A DNA stretch of 54,198 bases from Candidatus Saganbacteria bacterium (GTDB lineage: Bacteria > Margulisbacteria > WOR-1 > XYC2-FULL-46-14 > WPAF01): contig WPAF01000002.1 in assembly GCA_009772965.1 (NCBI GenBank), positions 1-54,198 on the forward strand. The letters run 5' to 3'. Below, in pieces: positions 790-28,831 of this stretch; position 1 is the stretch's first letter, and each line of letters opens with the position of its first letter. The notes under the pieces were generated by a model. The model was not told where the DNA came from. It ran no database searches and saw only the letters and a list, made by a program, of their open reading frames with translations. The position numbers were made by a program, and so were the translations under genes.

Positions 790-2862
790 TTATACCTCCG
801 ATATCCTATATCGGTCTTTAAGCTCGCCGATTTTTCCTTTGTTCCAGCCCGAAACCCTTGAAAAATAACCAGTAATCCTGGTAATGCATTCAATATTCTT
901 GGAGGAGCAAATTGGACAGTTTTCACGGAGGCCGCGCGAGGTTTTGCCGCATCCGCCGCAAACCGTGAACTCCGGCGAAAAAGTGATCTGGCTGTTTTGG
1001 GTTTCCCTAAAAACTTTTATTACAAAGTTAGATATGCTTTTTGCGTTTGGCCTGCTTTCCCCGAGCCAAACGTGAGTCAACGCGCCGGCGTCAATTAAAG
1101 GGTGAAAAAGCCCTTCCATGCGGACCCTGTCAATCAAGTTCAAGGTGTAAGAAACATTCAAATAGGTTGAATTTGTATAGTAAAAGTCCCCGCTTTCAAG
1201 GTTACCTTTAAGGACTTTGCCGGCAGCTTTTGGAAAATGCTTCTGGTCAAGCTTGGCAAATCTATAGGCGGTTGATTCTGCCGGAGTTTGCTCCAGCACA
1301 AACTTTAAATCGTATTTTTCGGAAAGCTCGGAGCATTTTATTCTCATAAATGAAATAATTTTTAGCCCGATTTTTATCGCTTCGGGATTTTCATGCAATT
1401 CAGCGCCGGTATAATGCTGAACCATTTCATTAAGGCCCAAGATGCCGATTAAATGGGTAACTCTCCTAAGCCGCAAATAAGATTCGCCGTCGCGGTTTAA
1501 CGTAAGAAGCGAAAGCGGGCCGTCTATCCCTTCCGCTAAAAGGCTTTCAATAAAAGCGCGTTTTTGCTTATGCGCCTTTGCGGCAAGCTCAAGCGCCGCT
1601 TCCAAGTGCTTAAAAAGTTCTTCGTCATTGTTTGATAAATAGGCGATCCTTGGCAGGTTGATGGTGATATTTTGAATGGCGGAGTAGCGCATGCGCCAAG
1701 GTTCTTTCGCATCCTGAAGATCCGAATATTCAAGCTTAAACGAAAGGCGGCAGCATTCGGAAATTTTCGCGGTATCGCCGCGGTCAAAAACATAATAGGT
1801 GTTTCCCTTTTCCGCGGCAACTTCCGCGGTTAAATCCAAAAATTCTTCATGCCCTTCTTCTTTAAAAAACTTTTCGGTAATATGAAGCAGGGGTTTTGGA
1901 AAAAAATACGGCCTGCCCGCGCCATCGCCCTCTAAATAAACCTCAAACAGCGCCCTAGCAAAAGCCTGCGCTTCTTTTTTATAATCCCCATACTTTTTAC
2001 CGGTATATTTTCCGTTCCTGCCGATTGCCGGGGTTTCTTCGAAGTGCTTGGGGATTTCGTAATATATGTTTAAATCGGAAAAAAGACCCTGTCCGCCCCG
2101 GGATATGGCAACGGTTGAGAACTCCGTTATAAGCTGGCGGGCAAGCTTTCTTAGTTCGTTTTGTCCCATGCCTTCAATCTGCGGAGCGACAAACATATTA
2201 ACCGCATCCCAGCCGATCGCGCCGGCAAAAAAGCCGTGCAAAGTTATGGAAAATTTAACAATCTGCGAAATTAAATCTTCCGCGTCTTCGGGTGGGCGGG
2301 CGGATAGAGGAGCATCGGGCAAATCCAGACCGAATTTTTTAATGTATTCAACCGACTGGCCTGAGCAATAAGGCCGATCAATAAATCCGAGATCGTGAAG
2401 ATGGATGGTTCCAACCATATGGGCGTCCGCGATATCAGGGCTAAAAACATTCAGCAGAGCGAATTCTTTTTTGATATTTTCCGCCAGAGTTAAATTGGTT
2501 GCTTCGGGGGAGTGGGGGGTGTTGGCGTTTTCTTTGTTTTTGTGGTGGATTATTTTATTAACATCAAAAACCGGAGAGCCAAGCCGCGTGTGTTTCCTGC
2601 GCGCGTCTTCAAGCCCATAGGCCAAAAGCTTAACATCCACCAGCTCCCTGATCAGCGGAGCGGTAATACTTTTTAAATTCAGCCCCAAAATTTCTTTTTC
2701 TACTTCAACCCCGATGATGTTGGCTATTTCCGGCCTGATTCCTGTTTCCTTCACCAGAGCCTCGATTATTCGGTTTCGATCCCAGGCGATAATATCGTCA
2801 GTTGATGTCCTGACAAACATGGAAAGATCGGTAGTTTCTCTTTGGAGAACATCAGTTGGCAT
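790..2862 (-). CDS. nrdD: Anaerobic ribonucleoside-triphosphate reductase, second copy
   Basis: A 690-residue class III ribonucleotide reductase, making deoxynucleotides with a glycyl radical. An ATP-cone (about residues 15-95) precedes the ten-stranded barrel. Cys166 (RPYCSG) and Cys370/Cys371 (SECCRLSF) are candidate catalytic cysteines. A C-terminal zinc ribbon has Cys635, 638, 649 and 652, and the glycyl-radical motif RITGY places the radical at Gly665. It is clearly paralogous to the copy just upstream, which it overlaps by 11 nt. Both copies keep the radical motif, zinc ligands and cysteine pair, so neither looks dead. The NrdG activase they need is not in this window. Confidence 0.95.
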   Translation of the reverse strand: MPTDVLQRETTDLSMFVRTSTDDIIAWDRNRIIEALVKETGIRPEIANIIGVEVEKEILGLNLKSITAPLIRELVDVKLLAYGLEDARRKHTRLGSPVFDVNKIIHHKNKENANTPHSPEATNLTLAENIKKEFALLNVFSPDIADAHMVGTIHLHDLGFIDRPYCSGQSVEYIKKFGLDLPDAPLSARPPEDAEDLISQIVKFSITLHGFFAGAIGWDAVNMFVAPQIEGMGQNELRKLARQLITEFSTVAISRGGQGLFSDLNIYYEIPKHFEETPAIGRNGKYTGKKYGDYKKEAQAFARALFEVYLEGDGAGRPYFFPKPLLHITEKFFKEEGHEEFLDLTAEVAAEKGNTYYVFDRGDTAKISECCRLSFKLEYSDLQDAKEPWRMRYSAIQNITINLPRIAYLSNNDEELFKHLEAALELAAKAHKQKRAFIESLLAEGIDGPLSLLTLNRDGESYLRLRRVTHLIGILGLNEMVQHYTGAELHENPEAIKIGLKIISFMRIKCSELSEKYDLKFVLEQTPAESTAYRFAKLDQKHFPKAAGKVLKGNLESGDFYYTNSTYLNVSYTLNLIDRVRMEGLFHPLIDAGALTHVWLGESRPNAKSISNFVIKVFRETQNSQITFSPEFTVCGGCGKTSRGLRENCPICSSKNIECITRITGYFSRVSGWNKGKIGELKDRYRISEV

Positions 2863-4951
2863 TAAAAAATCCTCCCACGCGGTGGCGGTCTTTTAATTCT
2901 GCTTTTTTGCCTTTGTTCCAGCCGGAAATCCTTGAAAAATATCCGGTGATCCTGGTAATGCCGTCAACATTTTCTGATTGGCAGTAAGGGCAGGCATCTT
3001 TTAAGCTTCGGGTGATTTTTCCGCAGTCGTTGCAGGACGTGAATTCAGGGGAAAAGGCGATCTGGCTGTTTTGGGTTTCTCTCATTGTTTTAACCACAAA
3101 ATTAGCAAGGCTTTCAGGGCTTGGCTTTGATTCTCCAAGCCAAACGTGGGTCAACGCGCCGGCGTCAATTAACGGATGGAACAATCCCTCCTGCCTTACG
3201 CGGTCAACAGGGTTCATTTGGTTTTTAACGTTGAAGTAGGTTGAATTGGAATAATAAATTTCCCCATTTTCATAACTGCCCTTGATCACATTGCGGGCAT
3301 GGCTTGTGTAATGCTGAAGATCGAGCTTCGCAAAGCGGTAGGCGGTTGATTCCGCGGGGGTTTGTTCCAGTACAAAATGTATGCCGTATTTTTTAGTCAT
3401 TTCATCGCATTTTATTTTCATGTGGGAAATAACCTTCAGCCCAAATTTTAGCGCCTCCGTATTTTCATGGAGCTCGTATCCCATGTGCGCCTGAACCAGC
3501 TCATTTAACCCGAGAATTCCCATAAGGTACGATACTCTCCACATTCTAAGATAAGGATGGCTATCCCTTTGCATGGCAAGCATAGAAAGGGGGCCGTTTT
3601 TACCGGCGGCTAAAAGTTCTTCAATGAATTTTTTCTTTTGGAGGTGGGCTTTGGCCGCAAGCTCAAGCATTTCGTCAATTAATGAGAAAAGTTTTTCATT
3701 TTTAGCCTTGGCGCGAAACGCAATCCTGGGGAGGTTGATCGTCACATTTTGGAGGGCTGAATAACGCATTTTCCAAGGTTCCTTGGCGTCGTCAAGGTCT
3801 GATTGTTCAAGCTTGAACGAAAGGCGGCAGCATTCGGAAATTTTTGCGGTATCGCCGCGGTCAAAGACATAATAGGTATTTCCCATTTCAGAAGATACCT
3901 CTGCTATGTGGCGGAGAAAATCTTCGTGTCCCGGAGTTTTAAAGAATTTTTCAGTCATATGGACAAGGGGTTTTGGAAAAAAGAAAGGCCGGCCTGAGCC
4001 ATCCCCTTCTTTGTAAACACTAAAAAGTTCCCAGCTGAATTTTTGCGCTTCTTTTTGGTACTCGCCATAAGTTTTGCCGGTGTAAAGCCCGCCCGGACCG
4101 ATTGCCGGCACATTTTCAAAATGCTTGGGTATTTCATAGTAAATGTTGATGTCTGAAAAAATGGCTTGGCCGCCGCGGGCAACAGCTTGCTGGCTGTATT
4201 CATATATCATCATTTGGGCAAGCTGGTGAATTTCTTTGTCTGATTTGCCGACCAAGAAAGGGGCAAAAAAGATATTTACCGCGTCCCAGCCGATTGCCCC
4301 GGCAAAAACCCCCTGAAGGGCGGCGGAGAATTTTACCATTTGTGCAAGAAGCACTTCTGCGTGCTTTGCCGGTTTTGCTATTGATAAAGCGTTTGGAAGG
4401 TCAAGGCCGAATTTTTTTACATATTCTATTGACTGTCCCGAGCAGTAGGGGCGGTCAATAAAGCCCAAATCATGGAGATGCATATCTCCTCTCATGTGCG
4501 CGTCGCTTATATCCTGCGAAAAAACATGGAGAAGGGCAAATTCTTTTTTTATCCCTTCGGCCAAAGAAAGGTTGGTGGCTTCTGGTCCGTGGGGGACATT
4601 TGCATTCTCCTTGTTTGGGGAAAAAATAATCTGCTTGACATCAAAAAGAGGCGTTCCTAAACGAGTATGCTTCCTCCTGGCGTCTTCAAGACCGTATTCA
4701 AGCAGTTTAACGTCAACCAGCTCGCGGATAAGAGGCGCGGTAATTGAGCCGATTCTCAAATTAGCAATTTGCCTTTCAACCTCATGCCCGATTATTTCTG
4801 CGATATCGCGGCTGATTTCAGTTTCTCTTATAAGCGCTTCGATTATCTTTTCCCTGTCCCACAGGACTATATTTTCAGACGACGTCCGGACAAAAAGCGC
4901 TAAATCGGTAGCATCAGAAACATTTGTTTTTTCCTCGGTTAAAACACTCAT
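2852..4951 (-). CDS. nrdD: Anaerobic ribonucleoside-triphosphate reductase, first copy
   Basis: A 699-residue class III ribonucleotide reductase. Residues about 20-105 form an ATP-cone, the allosteric nucleotide site. The barrel carries Cys170 (RPYCSG) and Cys374/375 (SECCRLSF). The zinc ribbon uses Cys640, 643, 654 and 657, and Gly670 in RITGY is the predicted radical site. Its start overlaps the nrdR stop by 4 nt (ATGA), so the two are translationally coupled and share the NrdR-controlled promoter. A tandem duplicate follows immediately. The cysteine pattern and an adjacent redoxin suggest use of a thiol reductant, not formate; that is inference. Confidence 0.95.
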   Translation of the reverse strand: MSVLTEEKTNVSDATDLALFVRTSSENIVLWDREKIIEALIRETEISRDIAEIIGHEVERQIANLRIGSITAPLIRELVDVKLLEYGLEDARRKHTRLGTPLFDVKQIIFSPNKENANVPHGPEATNLSLAEGIKKEFALLHVFSQDISDAHMRGDMHLHDLGFIDRPYCSGQSIEYVKKFGLDLPNALSIAKPAKHAEVLLAQMVKFSAALQGVFAGAIGWDAVNIFFAPFLVGKSDKEIHQLAQMMIYEYSQQAVARGGQAIFSDINIYYEIPKHFENVPAIGPGGLYTGKTYGEYQKEAQKFSWELFSVYKEGDGSGRPFFFPKPLVHMTEKFFKTPGHEDFLRHIAEVSSEMGNTYYVFDRGDTAKISECCRLSFKLEQSDLDDAKEPWKMRYSALQNVTINLPRIAFRAKAKNEKLFSLIDEMLELAAKAHLQKKKFIEELLAAGKNGPLSMLAMQRDSHPYLRMWRVSYLMGILGLNELVQAHMGYELHENTEALKFGLKVISHMKIKCDEMTKKYGIHFVLEQTPAESTAYRFAKLDLQHYTSHARNVIKGSYENGEIYYSNSTYFNVKNQMNPVDRVRQEGLFHPLIDAGALTHVWLGESKPSPESLANFVVKTMRETQNSQIAFSPEFTSCNDCGKITRSLKDACPYCQSENVDGITRITGYFSRISGWNKGKKAELKDRHRVGGFFNAN

Positions 4952-6927: not shown

Positions 6928-6936
6928 ATTATAACA
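6928..6936 (-). promoter_or_regulatory. Extended -10 promoter before def
   Basis: Minus-strand TGT-TATAAT (TATAAT at 6928-6933) lies 8 nt before the def ATG. No good -35 was seen, which is tolerable for an extended -10 element. It would give a nearly leaderless def mRNA. Confidence 0.5.
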
Positions 6937-8821
6937 TGTTCAGAGGGTCAATATCGAGAGTAATTTTAACATCCCTTGGTGGATTTATCCCATTTATGGT
7001 GTTATCGCAAGCCCTTTTCATGGCGGGGATGTTTTCACCTTTAAGCAGAATTTGGTAGCGATACTGCCCGCGCAATTTTGAAATCGGGGCTTTGGCCGGG
7101 CCAAGCACCTTTGTGGTTTTAGCCTTTTCTAAAAATACTTTTGCCATTTGCTCTGAAATATCAGCGGCTTTGGAATCGTTTTTCGAGCTGACAATAATAT
7201 TTATTAGCCTTGAGAATGGCGGATATTTTAACGCTTTCCTGTGTTCGATTTCCTCATTGTAAAATCCTTTGTAATCATTGTTTACAAAATATTTAAAAAC
7301 ATAATGATCGGGAGTAAATGTTTGAACCAGCAATTTTCCTGAGATATTAATTGTTCTTCCTGCCGCCTGGGTTAACTGCGCAAAGGTTCTTTCTGCCGCG
7401 CGAAAATCAGGCATATTGAGCGAAATATCGGCTGAAACAACACCCACAAGCGCGACTTTTTCCAAGCCTTTGGTTACCATTTGAGTTCCAATCAATATAT
7501 TCGAGTCGCCTTTGGAGAATGATTCAATTATATTTTCCTGAGCCCCTTTTTTTAAGACTGAGTCCCGATCAAGGCGCAGTATTTTCGCGTCTTTATAAAA
7601 TTTTGCGATTTCCTGTTCTATCCTCTGCGTGCCGATCCCAAAAAATCCTATGCTGCCGTTCCCGCACTTGGAGCAAAAGACTTTGGCTTCCATCTCAAAA
7701 TCGCAGTGTCCGCAGCGCAGCTTCTTATCATCTGAATGGTAAACGAGCGATACCGAACATTTGGGGCATTCAATAGTTGCCCCGCATCCTTTGCAGACGG
7801 CAAAGGTAAAATAGCCGCGGCGATTGATAAAAAGGATTGCTTTTTCTCCCCGCGATAAAGTACCCGCTAATTCATCCCTTAATTTTCGAGAAAGCATGAA
7901 TTCTTTTTCATAACGCATATCAATGATTTCAATCTGAGGGGAGGGGTTATCATCAATTTTATCCGGAAGTTCAGGGGTTTTATATTCTCCGGCTTGCGCT
8001 TTGTAATATGATTCAATAGAAGGGGTGGGGGAACCCAATATTATTGAAGTGTTTAATTGTTGGGCAATATCACGCACATGATAGCGCGGACTTTTTTCTT
8101 GTTTATATGCCTGATCGTGCTCCTCATCAATTATAATAAGTCCAAGATTTTTTATCGGGGCAAAAACAGCTGAACGGGTTCCTATTACAATCTTTGCTTC
8201 ACCTTTTGCGATTCTTCCCCACTCAATTTCCCTTTGTTTAGGCGTCAAACTGCTGTGTAAAACCGCCACCAACCCTTCAAATCTTTCATTTAACCTTTGT
8301 AAAAAGCTGGAGATAAGGCCAATTTCAGGCACAAGCAAAATTGCGCCCTGATTATTTTTAATTGTATCTTCAATTGAGCGCAAATAAAATTCTGTTCTGG
8401 CTGAGCCGGAAGAATTATGCAAAAGAAGAGTTTCTATTCCCATCCCTATGCTCCTGCCTCGCCCTGCCTGACCGGCAGGCAGGCTTTTCCTTTTTTCCGA
8501 TTTTGAAGCCCCCGGCGGCATAAACATTCTTAACGCGGTTATTAAAAAACAGCCGTAATATCCCGCCATCCATTTTGCTGTTGTTAGCGCCTCTAGCTGA
8601 AAAAGCGGATATTCCGAATTGATTGCTTTGACATCTTTTATCAATGAGACAGGAACGTCCGGCTTTTCTGAAAATCCAACCACATACCCAAGAGTTTCCC
8701 TTTTGCCAAAAGGGAGAACAACTTGATGTCCGACCATTAATTTTAATCCTTCAGGAATGCTGTAGTGGTATATTCTATCTAATTGCGGAGCGGCATTTGC
8801 AAGGATAATTTCTGCATACAT
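6929..8821 (-). CDS. priA: PriA-like primosomal helicase N', degenerate Walker A
   Basis: A 630-residue PriA homologue (replication restart helicase), shorter than the usual 730-800. The N-terminal DNA-binding domain (1-105) is followed almost directly by helicase sequence, so the winged-helix region and the Q-motif seem missing. The Walker A segment reads SGSARTE (139-144 region) where the family has TGSGKTE, so the catalytic lysine is replaced by arginine. Motif II DEEH (232-235), GSPTPS, INRRGY, the zinc cysteines (343-386) and the QAAGR motif are all intact. Residues about 112-121 are encoded by a palindromic repeat inserted in frame. Priming by protein-protein contacts may survive, but ATPase activity is doubtful. 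Its own promoter lies 7 nt upstream. Confidence 0.88.
   Translation of the reverse strand: MYAEIILANAAPQLDRIYHYSIPEGLKLMVGHQVVLPFGKRETLGYVVGFSEKPDVPVSLIKDVKAINSEYPLFQLEALTTAKWMAGYYGCFLITALRMFMPPGASKSEKRKSLPAGQAGRGRSIGMGIETLLLHNSSGSARTEFYLRSIEDTIKNNQGAILLVPEIGLISSFLQRLNERFEGLVAVLHSSLTPKQREIEWGRIAKGEAKIVIGTRSAVFAPIKNLGLIIIDEEHDQAYKQEKSPRYHVRDIAQQLNTSIILGSPTPSIESYYKAQAGEYKTPELPDKIDDNPSPQIEIIDMRYEKEFMLSRKLRDELAGTLSRGEKAILFINRRGYFTFAVCKGCGATIECPKCSVSLVYHSDDKKLRCGHCDFEMEAKVFCSKCGNGSIGFFGIGTQRIEQEIAKFYKDAKILRLDRDSVLKKGAQENIIESFSKGDSNILIGTQMVTKGLEKVALVGVVSADISLNMPDFRAAERTFAQLTQAAGRTINISGKLLVQTFTPDHYVFKYFVNNDYKGFYNEEIEHRKALKYPPFSRLINIIVSSKNDSKAADISEQMAKVFLEKAKTTKVLGPAKAPISKLRGQYRYQILLKGENIPAMKRACDNTINGINPPRDVKITLDIDPLNML
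8463..8484. repeat. Palindromic repeat inside priA
   Basis: CCTGCCTG-ACC-GGCAGGCAGG type palindrome, encoding a Leu-Pro-Ala-Gly-Gln-Ala-Gly-like stretch in PriA. The same core recurs at 21794, 28531 and 36418 in this window. Confidence 0.8.
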
Positions 8822-8953: not shown

Positions 8954-9592
8954 ATGAAATGGAAAGAATTTGTTGAAATTGCGGGTAATCTGCCAGTTAT
9001 TGATACAGAGATGCTTTTGGCTGGGGTGGCTAATCCTAATTCTATTAAAGTTCAAATTAGCCGCTGGAAAAAACAAGGTAAGGTTATTCAAATTAAAAGG
9101 GGCATCTATGCTTTAGCTGAACCATATAAAAAATTGGATGTATATGAACCCTATCTGGCCGCACTTTTAAAGCAGCCTTCTTATATCAGCCTAGAAAAAG
9201 CTTTTGAATATCATGGCTTAATTCCAGAGGGAGTTAGTGTTTATACTTGTATTACAACCAAGCGGCCAGGTAAAATTATTTCTAAACTGGGCGTGTTTGA
9301 TTATAAACATGTAAAGGCAAGTCTTTTTTGGGGCTATACAGCCATTACCGTAAATAAACAAACCGCGTTTATGGCTTTACCCGAAAAAGCATTGCTAGAT
9401 TTTTTTTATTTAAAAGGCATTAAAATTTCTCCTGATTACCTTAATGAGATGAGACTGCAAAACTTAAGGGATATTGATTTGGATCAACTGCTGGCCTTTG
9501 CGAAAAAGTTTAAAAAACCGGGCATGTTAAATGTTGCAAAAGTAATAAGGGAATATGTTGGACAAGAAAAAGATAAGGACAAAGAATTATGA
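8954..9592 (+). CDS. AbiEi-family antitoxin (type IV toxin-antitoxin)
   Basis: A 212-residue protein with an N-terminal winged helix (residues about 10-55, including ISRWKKQGKVIQIKRGIYAL) followed by the AbiEi-type domain (SLEKAFEYHGLIPEG, later ALPEKALLDFFYL). AbiEi antitoxins repress their own operon and neutralise the AbiEii nucleotidyltransferase without direct contact. The next gene is exactly that toxin, overlapping by 4 nt. It lies on the strand opposite to the flanking housekeeping genes, as part of an inserted block. A TATAAT occurs only 3 nt before the ATG, too close for a normal promoter of this start. Confidence 0.88.
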   Translation: MKWKEFVEIAGNLPVIDTEMLLAGVANPNSIKVQISRWKKQGKVIQIKRGIYALAEPYKKLDVYEPYLAALLKQPSYISLEKAFEYHGLIPEGVSVYTCITTKRPGKIISKLGVFDYKHVKASLFWGYTAITVNKQTAFMALPEKALLDFFYLKGIKISPDYLNEMRLQNLRDIDLDQLLAFAKKFKKPGMLNVAKVIREYVGQEKDKDKEL

Positions 9593-10386
9593 AAGAATAT
9601 GTTTTAGAATTAGCGAACCAGCAGAAAAGTTTAAACGCAAAATTGAATATTATGAGAGAATATTTGCAGGCCTATGTTTTAAGAATATTAAGCGACGAAG
9701 GTTTTTTCCGCTATGCTGCTTTTTTAGGAGGCACGGCCTTAAGATTCCTGTATAACCTGCCCAGATTTTCTGAAGAGTTAGATTTTTCTCTGGAAGAAAA
9801 AAAAGAATATTCCTTTGAGCATTTGATTAAAAAAGTAAAAGATGAGTTTATGGCGGCTGGCTATAAGGTTTCGGTTTCTTATAACGATCAAAAAACTGTC
9901 CAGCATGCTTTTTTAAGCTTTGAAGAACTTATGTATGAAGCGAAAATTTCACCGATGAAGAACCAGAAAATTTCAATAAAGATTGAAATCGATACCAATC
10001 CTCCTCAAGGCGCAATCCATAAGAAATATATTATTAACAAATATTTTCCTATTGCTTTCTTATCTTATGATCTTTCTTCTCTTTTCACCGGCAAACTGCA
10101 TGCTGTTTTTAGCAGAAAATATACTAAGGGCCGGGATTTTTTTGATATTGGCTGGTATCTTTCTAAGTGGAAAGATTTAACACCTAATTTTTTGCTGCTT
10201 AAAAATTCCTTACTGCAAACAAGCTATGGTAAAGAAATTCCCACGGAAGAAAATTGGCGCGGGCGTTTATCTGAGGTTATAAAAAGTACAGACTGGGATA
10301 AAGTTAGAAAAGATATTGAAAACTTTCTTGAACAGCCAAAAGACCTGGAAGTGTTTTCAAAAGAAAATATTTTATCGCTTATTTGA
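9589..10386 (+). CDS. AbiEii-family nucleotidyltransferase toxin
   Basis: A 265-residue nucleotidyltransferase of the AbiEii type. The catalytic signature GGTAL (47-51) with RFSEELDFSL (59-68) and the later KLHAVFSRKYTKGRDFFDI block are characteristic. Homologues transfer nucleotides to tRNA or other targets and cause growth arrest, sometimes giving phage resistance by abortive infection. The ATGA overlap with the upstream antitoxin gene indicates translational coupling. In the signature, E-L-D stands where many members have D-L-D; whether that weakens catalysis is unknown. Confidence 0.88.
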   Translation: MKEYVLELANQQKSLNAKLNIMREYLQAYVLRILSDEGFFRYAAFLGGTALRFLYNLPRFSEELDFSLEEKKEYSFEHLIKKVKDEFMAAGYKVSVSYNDQKTVQHAFLSFEELMYEAKISPMKNQKISIKIEIDTNPPQGAIHKKYIINKYFPIAFLSYDLSSLFTGKLHAVFSRKYTKGRDFFDIGWYLSKWKDLTPNFLLLKNSLLQTSYGKEIPTEENWRGRLSEVIKSTDWDKVRKDIENFLEQPKDLEVFSKENILSLI

Positions 10387-10548: not shown

Positions 10549-10600
10549 GCCACAATTATCAGGTTCTTCAAAAGAGCGTGTATTATTGTGGTTTTTTTGT
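10549..10600 (+). terminator. Terminator-like hairpin before the HEAT gene
   Basis: CCACAAT (10550-10556) pairs with ATTGTGG (10585-10591), followed by seven Ts. The loop is 28 nt, so it is not a classic tight terminator; it may end the abiE transcript or act as an attenuator in the leader of the next gene. The rest of the 10387-10637 gap holds a short CTGCCCGGCAGG palindrome and no other recognisable feature. Confidence 0.45.
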
Positions 10601-10637
10601 TTTTAAGGTTAACAAGAGAAAACAAGGAGGGTTTTTT

Positions 10638-11465
10638 ATGTTTAGTGTAAATTTATTGCCTTTTCAAGTGTATGCGTTTGGGCAGGCAGGGTGTAATCCG
10701 CCCCAAAAACCGGACGAAGTTAAACAGTATATTGATGATTTAGGAAGTAAAAACCAGAAAAATGGTTGGAGAATTAGATTGAGGGGGGAAGATGGGTTGT
10801 TGCGAGTATTAAGGTCAAACATGGGAGGAGAAAAACGGGTTAATATTATTAATGAACTTTTAAAAAACTTAGCTAGTGGAGATTATGAAAAGCGAAAAGC
10901 AATTATTAGGATTTTAGTTATTTTACTAAGATCTGAAAAATCCGACTCGCCTTTATTTTCCGAACCATCTTTACGTCAACGGGTTGCTGATACTTTTATA
11001 CGGATATTTGACCAAAGTGCATGGGGAATTAAAGAATTACTCGTTTTAGGACTTTCTACATTGGTAAAAAGGGGACTTCCGGATGAGTTGAGTTCTAGGA
11101 TCTTCTTTTTACTCGTAGCTTCAGCTAAAAGTAATAATTGGAGAATAAGAACAGCTTCTATTGAGAGTTTAGGCAGTCTTTTTAAATCCAATTTGATTAC
11201 CTTAAATCTACAAAAGCAGATTGAGGATAAAAAGAATGAAGTTATCCCAGTGCTAATAGCAGTAATGAAAGACTCACATAGTGATGGAGTTGTTAAACTT
11301 GTTGTAGCAAAAATATTAGTTAAATTAGGTGACAGAGAACAAGCAATTCCAGCCTTGATAGCAGCTTTGAATAGTCCTGAATGGTTTATTAGAAAAGCAG
11401 CAGCAGATGCATTAAGGAAATTACAAGTTATGGTAATAATTGACGATGGGATATTTTATGAATGA
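10638..11465 (+). CDS. HEAT-repeat protein of unknown function
   Basis: A 275-residue, probably cytoplasmic, alpha-solenoid. The second half shows HEAT/PBS-lyase-type units, such as LVVAKILVKLGDREQAIPAL and the following LNSPEWFIRKAAADALRKL. No catalytic motif is visible. ATG 10638 is preceded by AAGGAGG at the right distance; an earlier in-frame start at 10578 lies inside the terminator-like hairpin and is rejected. It sits between the AbiE pair and an MNT/HEPN pair in an inserted block. HEAT proteins often act as binding scaffolds, but no partner can be named. Confidence 0.65.
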   Translation: MFSVNLLPFQVYAFGQAGCNPPQKPDEVKQYIDDLGSKNQKNGWRIRLRGEDGLLRVLRSNMGGEKRVNIINELLKNLASGDYEKRKAIIRILVILLRSEKSDSPLFSEPSLRQRVADTFIRIFDQSAWGIKELLVLGLSTLVKRGLPDELSSRIFFLLVASAKSNNWRIRTASIESLGSLFKSNLITLNLQKQIEDKKNEVIPVLIAVMKDSHSDGVVKLVVAKILVKLGDREQAIPALIAALNSPEWFIRKAAADALRKLQVMVIIDDGIFYE

Positions 11466-11620: not shown

Positions 11621-11977
11621 ATGCCAAATGTAAGAAAAATTTTAAAATTCCCAATTAACCAAAAGTTGTTGGATGAAATTACTGATCGGATTGTTGAAAA
11701 AATAAACCCCCTCAAGATAATTCTGTTTGGATCTTTCGCGTACGGAAAACCAAATAAAGATAGTGATTTGGATTTTTTTATAATAAAAAAAACAAAATTG
11801 CCTTTTAGGAAAAGATATGGAATGGTAAGCGATGCGCTTTATCCTCGAATGATCCCAATGGATTTTATTGTTAAAACCCCCAAAGAAATAAATGAAAGGT
11901 TGAAGAAGTTTGATCCGTTTATTAAAGAAGTCCTCAAAAGAGGCAAAGTATTGTATGAAAACAACAGAAACAGTTAA
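11621..11977 (+). CDS. MNT-type nucleotidyltransferase
   Basis: A 118-residue minimal nucleotidyltransferase with the Pol-beta fold signature ILFGSFAYGKPNKDSDLD: Gly37-Ser38 and metal ligands Asp49 and Asp51. In MNT/HEPN toxin-antitoxin systems the MNT partner neutralises a HEPN RNase, in some cases by adding AMP to it. The HEPN gene follows with a 23-nt overlap but carries an internal stop codon. The MNT motif itself is intact. Confidence 0.88.
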   Translation: MPNVRKILKFPINQKLLDEITDRIVEKINPLKIILFGSFAYGKPNKDSDLDFFIIKKTKLPFRKRYGMVSDALYPRMIPMDFIVKTPKEINERLKKFDPFIKEVLKRGKVLYENNRNS

Positions 11978-12347
11978 TGAATGGGCTGAAAAAGCAGAAG
12001 GCGATTATGAAACGGTTTTGGATCTCAAAAAGAAAAATAAAAAGTGCCAGCAATATATTATTGCTTTTCATTGCCAGCAATGTATAGAAAAATATCTCAA
12101 AGCTATTTTAACTTCATACGAAATCCCTTTCCCGAAACAGCACGATTTAGAACAATTACTGGTATTGTTTCTCCCAAAAGATATTTTACTGGCTCCCATA
12201 AGAAAACAGCTGAAAATATTAACTCCATATGCTGTGTAGTTTAGGTATCCGGGAGAAGATATTACTTCTCAAGAAGTTAAAGAAGCTATTTTAATAACTA
12301 AACGATTGCGAACGATTTTGAGAAGAAGGCTCAATCTTAGCAAATAG
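11955..12347 (+). pseudogene. HEPN-domain gene interrupted by an in-frame TAG
   Basis: Begins at ATG 11955 inside the MNT gene (MKTTETVNEWAEKAEGDY). The HEPN core FHCQQCIEKYLKAIL and KQHDLEQLL is intact up to LTPYAV, then TAG at 12237-12239. The same frame continues after the stop as FRYPGEDITSQEVKEAI and runs to TAG at 12345-12347. HEPN proteins normally read YAVEFRYPGE here, so a single GAG-to-TAG change explains the break. The product is either a 94-residue truncated protein or, with read-through, the 130-residue whole. Other genes in the window end in TAG (for example rpmI), so general recoding is unlikely. Confidence 0.85.
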
Positions 12348-27070: not shown

Positions 27071-27721
27071 ATGGCAAAAAAACAATTTGCGGTTTTGGGG
27101 TTGGGGCGGTTTGGGCAAAAGGTGGCAAAAGAGCTTTGCATGCGCGGGCAGGAAGTAGTTGTAATGGACAAAGATGAATCAAAAGTAAATGTAATTAAAG
27201 ACATGGTAACGCATGCTTATATCGGTGACATGACGGATGAATCGGCCATGCGCGAGGCCAATGTGCAAAATTGCGAAGTGGTTGTAATAGGCCAAAGCTC
27301 CAACATTGAATCAAATCTTTTGGCCGCCCAGCTTTGCAAAGAGCTGGCCGTAAAACAGCTGGTGGTAAAGGCCCAGTCAACACTTCATGGGAAGATATTG
27401 AAAAAACTTGGCGTGGACATGATAGTTTTTCCCGAGCAGGATACGGCCGTAAAGCTGGCCGACAAGCTTACCCTTAGGGGAATTATGGATTACATGGAAA
27501 TAAGCAGTGAGTTTGATGTTATTGAAATGAAAGCGCCGCCGGATTTTGTCAATAAAAAATTAAAAGACCTGAATTTAAGGAAAAAATACAATGTAAATGT
27601 CTTGGCGATAAGAAGAGGTTCGGAAAGCATAATGTCTCCAGATGGAGAAACGACGATTTTGGCGGAAGATATTTTAATTATGCTCGGAAATATCCAGAGC
27701 ATGGGGAAATTTTCCGGCTAG
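27071..27721 (+). CDS. K+ uptake regulatory subunit, KtrA/TrkA family
   Basis: A 216-residue RCK protein: Rossmann-type RCK_N (FAVLGLGRFGQKVAKEL, nucleotide-binding GxGxxG) and RCK_C from about 140. It forms a cytoplasmic ring gating the membrane subunit in response to ATP/ADP or NAD(H). AAAGGGGGAAAA precedes the start. Its 3' end overlaps the convergent pabB gene by 48 nt. Confidence 0.93.
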   Translation: MAKKQFAVLGLGRFGQKVAKELCMRGQEVVVMDKDESKVNVIKDMVTHAYIGDMTDESAMREANVQNCEVVVIGQSSNIESNLLAAQLCKELAVKQLVVKAQSTLHGKILKKLGVDMIVFPEQDTAVKLADKLTLRGIMDYMEISSEFDVIEMKAPPDFVNKKLKDLNLRKKYNVNVLAIRRGSESIMSPDGETTILAEDILIMLGNIQSMGKFSG

Positions 27722-28831
27722 GAATTTTGTTTTGGTCAGGCATTCATTGTATTCCCCCTCCGGGGTTGAGTACCATGTAATGCCCCCGCCAATTCCCATT
27801 TCCCCTTTTCCACCCCTTGTTAGGAGCGTTCGTATGGGCACATTAAAAAATAAATCCCTTTGGGGAGTGATGTATCCAATTGCTCCTGTATAAATATCCC
27901 TTTCTTCTTTTTCGATTTCATTTATTATTTCCATTGACCTGATCTTTGGCGCTCCGGTAACTGACCCTGAAGGAAAAACCGCTTTAAAAAGAGCGTAAAA
28001 TTTTATTTCCGGATCAATGGACGCGCAAACAGTTGAGGTCATTTGGCAAAGGGTGGTGTAGCACGCGGTTTCAAATAATTTTGGCGCGGCAACGGTTCCT
28101 GATTTTGCGATTTTCCCCAAATCATTCCTGAGCAGATCCGCAATCATTATGTTTTCTGCCCTGTTTTTTTGGTCAAAATGCAGCAGCCATTTTGAAAAAA
28201 GCCCTTTCGGCCAGGTGCCTTTCATTGGTTTTGTAATTACCCTGTCTTTGTTTTTCTTGATAAACATTTCCGGGGATAGGGAGCTTATCGTAAAGTCTTT
28301 TGTCCCAATATATGCGGGATAGGGGACTGGTTGGGTTTTTAATAATTCTTTATATAAAGCAAAAGGGCTGCCGGTGAAATCATATTTATATTTAATGCAG
28401 TAAGTTATCTGATAAGTTTCTCCTTCTCTAATATATGAACGGATTGTATTTATATTTTTAAAATAATCAGTGCGGGAAAGATTATAACCCTTGCCCCTAA
28501 ACTCATATTGGGGCGTAGTCGAGGATGAGACCTGCCTGTCCGGCAGGCAGGCATCCTCGACTACGCGTAAACTAGGTTGTCCTCCCGCCGGGGTTTTAAA
28601 GACGCCGAAATATACTAATGGGAATGAATAAGTTTTGTTGTTAAACAAACCGGGTTCAAAAGCAAAACCGGATTCATAAGAAAGAAAACCAGCCAGATAA
28701 TATCCGCTTGATACTGCCTTTTCCATTTCCTCAAAACAGCCGACTACCGAATCAAGCTTATTGCACGAAATGATTTTTTCGGGGTTTTTAAAACATATTG
28801 GTTTTTTCTCAAATTCAAATAATGCTAACAT
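27674..28831 (-). CDS. pabB: Aminodeoxychorismate synthase component I
   Basis: A 385-residue chorismate-binding enzyme of folate synthesis. The catalytic half has KPMKGTWPKG, DLLRNDLGKIAKSGTV, the FPSGSVTGAPK motif and a C-terminal MGIGGGITWYS. It is shorter than anthranilate synthase and the KPMKGT form fits PabB. Around residue 95 an in-frame palindromic repeat (28513-28566) adds about 18 residues. PabA and PabC are not nearby, so it may use ammonia or partners encoded elsewhere. Confidence 0.88.
   Translation of the reverse strand: MLALFEFEKKPICFKNPEKIISCNKLDSVVGCFEEMEKAVSSGYYLAGFLSYESGFAFEPGLFNNKTYSFPLVYFGVFKTPAGGQPSLRVVEDACLPDRQVSSSTTPQYEFRGKGYNLSRTDYFKNINTIRSYIREGETYQITYCIKYKYDFTGSPFALYKELLKTQPVPYPAYIGTKDFTISSLSPEMFIKKNKDRVITKPMKGTWPKGLFSKWLLHFDQKNRAENIMIADLLRNDLGKIAKSGTVAAPKLFETACYTTLCQMTSTVCASIDPEIKFYALFKAVFPSGSVTGAPKIRSMEIINEIEKEERDIYTGAIGYITPQRDLFFNVPIRTLLTRGGKGEMGIGGGITWYSTPEGEYNECLTKTKFLAGKFPHALDISEHN
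28513..28566. repeat. 54-bp nested palindrome inside pabB
   Basis: Outer 15-bp arms GCGTAGTCGAGGATG (28513-28527) and CATCCTCGACTACGC (28552-28566), enclosing the CCTGCCTG...CGGCAGGCAGG core seen elsewhere. Reading frame of pabB stays open through it. Confidence 0.9.

Follow-up and report, generated by a model that had tools for sequence, protein, structure and literature searches.

The priA gene on the 54,198-nucleotide stretch of DNA analysed here (the window) very likely codes for a pseudohelicase, i.e., judged from its sequence, a PriA which would have lost its motor and be kept as a scaffold. The protein is recognizably a PriA. It scored above the curated cut-off of TIGR00595 and contained the 3' DNA-binding domain (3'BD, PF17764), the zinc region (PF18319) and the C-terminal domain (CTD, PF18074). 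It was aligned with 35 relatives and then with those plus 38 further members of the phylum. The features are:

6929 to 8821, minus strand: priA open reading frame, 630 aa, intact, ATG start, TIGR00595 score 539 bits.
8516 to 8800, minus strand: 3'BD (PF17764), kept, E 2.6e-22.
8438 to 8488, minus strand: shortened linker (KSLPAGQAGRGRSIGMG) which replaces the longer linker and the LTxEQxxAL helix of the relatives; the spacer is 37 aa, the shortest among all compared.
8463 to 8483: palindromic repeat (CCTGCCTGACCGGCAGGCAGG) within the linker, dispersed over the genome in 7 exact copies versus 0 for a reversed-pattern control.
8390 to 8422, minus strand: degenerate motif I (Walker A), LHNSSGSARTE versus LxGVTGSGKTE.
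8306 to 8332, minus strand: altered motif Ia, VPEIGLISS versus VPEISLTPQ.
8114 to 8134, minus strand: motif II (Walker B), kept, IIDEEHD.
8015 to 8038, minus strand: altered motif III, GSPTPS versus GSATPS.
7664 to 7795, minus strand: cysteine-rich zinc region, all eight cysteines kept (profile match and alignment).
7454 to 7492, minus strand: motif V, two residues short, KGLE--KV versus KGLDVANV.
7349 to 7369, minus strand: degraded motif VI, QAAGRT-- versus QVAGRAGR, arginine finger lost.
6944 to 7219, minus strand: CTD (PF18074), kept, profile match.

The alignment showed that the window PriA departs from its relatives at most ATP-site motifs. An earlier note on this DNA had reported that the Walker A lysine is replaced (SGSARTE for TGSGKTE). 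This was correct: the relatives have GVTGSGKTE, the window PriA has NSSGSARTE, and the catalytic lysine is an arginine. Every other PriA compared, from relatives or from outside, that reaches the Walker A site kept GKT or GKS, with the single exception of a second motorless PriA from another family of the class (L069). The LTxEQxxAL helix preceding Walker A at the position of the Q-motif was absent. Thus, the window PriA has neither the Walker A GKT, nor the glutamine helix before it, nor the motif VI QxxGRxGR of an active SF2 helicase PriA. Motif II and the zinc site persist as claimed, the latter with cysteines 343, 346, 352, 355, 370, 373, 383 and 386. Also retained were motif Ib (GTRSA), motif IVa (GIGTQRIE) and most of motif IV/IVa. 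The further claim that the C-terminal helicase motifs persist held for motif IVa, but not for motif V, nor for motif VI, in which GRAGR is reduced to GRT--.

The priA, def and fmt genes are adjacent in the window as in the relatives, and the locus conforms to the class order coaBC-priA-def-fmt (L100 was compared); coaBC is farther away behind inserted genes. Between coaBC and priA an AbiEi/AbiEii type IV toxin-antitoxin pair is located (window 8954-10386, plus strand), and after it comes a HEAT-repeat ORF (10578-11465). At window 11621-12239 (plus strand) there is an MNT/HEPN-type pair, consisting of an MNT nucleotidyltransferase ORF and a HEPN ORF. The genome (G000) comprises 1.63 Mb in 63 contigs and is 94% complete. 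A search of this genome for a second priA, as the earlier note had proposed, found none, although with a small probability one may lie in the missing part. Other matches, an Mfd-length ORF (978 aa), a UvrB-length ORF (661 aa) and RecG, were rejected as second copies.

About 100 residues including the winged-helix region had been said to be missing, with a palindrome exactly at the deletion point. The window PriA has no winged-helix domain separating 3'BD from lobe 1; the same holds for the whole class, so that a local deletion is not the explanation. Between the 3'BD end and Walker A the spacer, 37 aa in the window PriA, measures 51-77 aa in class relatives without winged helix, 47-59 aa in most other phylum members and 127-131 aa in winged-helix PriAs. 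A gap of about 100 residues thus exists in comparison to the winged-helix PriAs, but not to the class relatives. Because the latter already are without a winged helix, most of the missing residues were lost before the window lineage arose. Specific to this lineage is a loss of only about 15-40 residues, the helix before Walker A included. The palindrome is indeed present in the linker. However, because seven exact copies are dispersed in the genome its location is not evidence that it caused the deletion. Within the class the priA linker is a hypervariable segment, and a role of the palindrome as maker of the deletion was unsupported. Another of the seven copies is located at window 28531-28551, in frame in a pabB-like ORF (27674-28831), where it reads CLPDRQV.

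In a phylogenetic tree the window PriA was sister to L003 (SH-aLRT 89) among relatives with intact motors, with a branch of 0.63 versus 0.35. At columns conserved to at least 85% the window PriA deviated in 12 of 49 positions inside the motifs as against 4 of 73 outside (Fisher p=0.005); for L003 the respective figures were 1/49 and 2/73. Using a stricter 95% column set the contrast was weaker (8/50 versus 2/53, p=0.048). Therefore, the statistical argument relies on several tests taken jointly. In a relative-rate test the lobes had 52 unique changes in the window PriA and 17 in L003 (p=3e-5). The other domains, with 13 and 7, did not differ significantly. A direct contrast of this asymmetry between lobes and other domains did not reach significance (Fisher p=0.40), since informative sites are scarce among the conserved non-motor positions. 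Lobe identity was 55/63% between the window PriA and L003 as compared to 70/75% between L003 and L004. In the same comparison the zinc region (72.5 versus 61%) and the CTD (52 versus 51%) were not accelerated. General genome decay was rejected as DnaB, DciA and RecG of the window genome scored normally.

Could the gene be a young pseudogene, a priA that was inactivated and is decaying, its frame intact by chance? Several changes affect otherwise invariant sites, and five other genomes of the phylum are without any detected PriA, so loss may be tolerated. Nevertheless, we consider a pseudogene unlikely. A neutral simulation with an equal excess of changes yielded a mean of 5.8 stops and a probability of 0.0075 for a frame free of stops, whereas neither stops nor frameshifts were observed in the 630 codons. 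The zinc region, which kept all its cysteines, and the CTD evolved no faster than in functional relatives; PF17764 and PF18074 scored well above their cut-offs. In addition, L069 is in the same state, more diverged and with an intact frame.

The PriA pseudohelicase as a kind is already known from Deinococcus; new are the window lineage, its separate origin, a second case in the class and, more broadly, the erosion of PriA seen in the phylum (see below). Among the papers searched, none described a split PriA or a PriA pseudohelicase besides the Deinococcus kind. D. radiodurans PriA has no ATPase activity and does not unwind DNA; binding to forks and to DnaB was measured (Lopper et al., 2015, PMC4504706). 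An exchange of lysine to arginine at Walker A is found in Deinococcus-Thermus PriA (PMC4504706). The window PriA shares with the D. radiodurans protein this exchange, degenerate ATPase motifs and retained DNA-binding parts, all in an intact frame. The two differ as follows. Walker B is degenerate in Deinococcus, whereas DEEH is kept in the window PriA; the latter is without the pre-Walker helix and without the arginine of motif VI; and it belongs to a different lineage in which the sister genera have normal motifs, i.e. its origin is independent. The same catalytic lysine is changed in E. coli PriA K230R (priA300), a motorless PriA which assembles primosomes and supports life. According to PMC4504706, which cites Zavitz and Marians (1992), K230R is without ATPase activity and still assembles primosomes. 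K230R is a laboratory point mutant, whereas the window PriA is natural and has lost several further motifs. Like canonical PriA from E. coli and Klebsiella (PDB 8fak, 4nl4, 6dgd) it has a 3'BD, two lobes with the cysteine-rich region and a CTD; unlike canonical PriA it is without a winged helix and its ATPase motifs are degenerate. The best structural matches of an AlphaFold model (shallow alignment, pLDDT 74) were solved PriAs. The second match was 6dcr, an E. coli PriA with an engineered winged-helix deletion, which resembles the window PriA in domain layout.

Alternatively, the window PriA might be an active, divergent ATPase operating with arginine at Walker A and with other residues taking over from the missing motif VI arginine. 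Walker B still reads DEEH, motif Ib and the greater part of motif IV/IVa are retained, and with DEEH in place some residual nucleotide binding may persist. However, the window PriA has lost at once the pre-Walker helix, a P-loop glycine, the P-loop lysine and the arginine finger of motif VI, and the exchange of lysine to arginine alone kills activity in E. coli PriA (PMC4504706, citing Zavitz and Marians, 1992). An active enzyme is decidedly unlikely. Finally, a sequencing or assembly error in a normal priA, raised in the earlier note in case the relatives were normal (they are) and compatible with an allele known from one assembly of one species, is hardly credible: in-frame whole-codon substitutions or exact 6-nt deletions, of which there are two, affect no fewer than five separate motifs, the ORF remains intact, ATP-site residues are not a target of sequencing errors, and the two normal sister genera are at 55-60% identity, which marks a diverged sequence and not a near-copy with errors.

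We favour the pseudohelicase, and the proposal of the earlier note, an ATPase-dead primosome scaffold, stands as the best reading. Changes in the pre-Walker helix and in five motifs (I, Ia, III, V and VI) would have abolished ATP binding and hydrolysis; the 3'BD, the zinc-binding region, the CTD and the fold of two lobes are retained. D-loops and abandoned forks would most likely still be recognised via 3'BD, lobes and CTD. There, the DnaB/DciA machinery could be recruited without PriA itself unwinding the lagging strand. Where unwinding is needed it would have to come from another helicase; RecG is present in the window genome. We infer that the window PriA is devoid of ATPase activity, yet binds forks and recruits DnaB.

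In L069 motif I reads FQRSCDKDLKV, motif II DREEG and motif VI NICGH. The ORF is intact (668 aa), 3'BD and CTD score, and the gene order is gmk-rpoZ-coaBC-priA-def-fmt. Its branch in the tree was 1.91 with an unsure placement. Because the nearest relatives of the window PriA have intact motors, two motor losses are the simplest account, and L069 and the window PriA probably lost the motor independently. L069 (L100:2555-4561) is from G012, a bin of 89% completeness in which no RecG was seen. E. coli priA300 suppresses the defects of recG mutants (PMC4752480); hence a joint loss of PriA motor and RecG in G012 would make sense, as a single case (n=1).

Other members of the phylum have PriA in pieces. 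Of 8 genomes of family f10, 7 have a separate 3'BD. It forms an ORF of its own of about 93-97 aa, immediately behind coaBC where priA was located ancestrally, and the helicase half is on another contig:

L096:1999-2424 (called ORF extends upstream), L097:1284-1577 and L098:1960-2241: 3'BD ORFs of f10.
L030:1495-3045: helicase half of f10, 516-520 aa, in L030 next to murI.

In G002, from the family of the window, priA consists of two ORFs, L004:1076-1444 (3'BD, 122 aa) and 1441-3018 (helicase, 525 aa), and the ATGA by which they overlap falls exactly on the linker. A similar adjacent split was seen in G045 (f19). These adjacent splits, in one genome each, may represent fission or a frame error. 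No PriA above the TIGR00595 cut-off was found in G016 (5 contigs) and G053, both 91% complete, nor in G029, G055 and G058. G016 retains DnaB and DciA.

Across the phylum the PriA motor may thus have been dropped repeatedly, considering the two motorless proteins, the separation of 3'BD and helicase in f10, G002 and G045, and the apparent total loss in G016 and G053. This would suggest, tentatively and with the odds rather against it, that DciA/DnaB loading requires little or no unwinding by PriA. A motorless PriA is not confined to radiation-resistant Deinococcus. In small-genome bacteria the motor was lost separately, probably on two occasions, and near relatives of these bacteria have retained it. 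Such natural before-and-after pairs allow us to ask which purpose PriA unwinding serves and what part of the protein is enough for replication restart.
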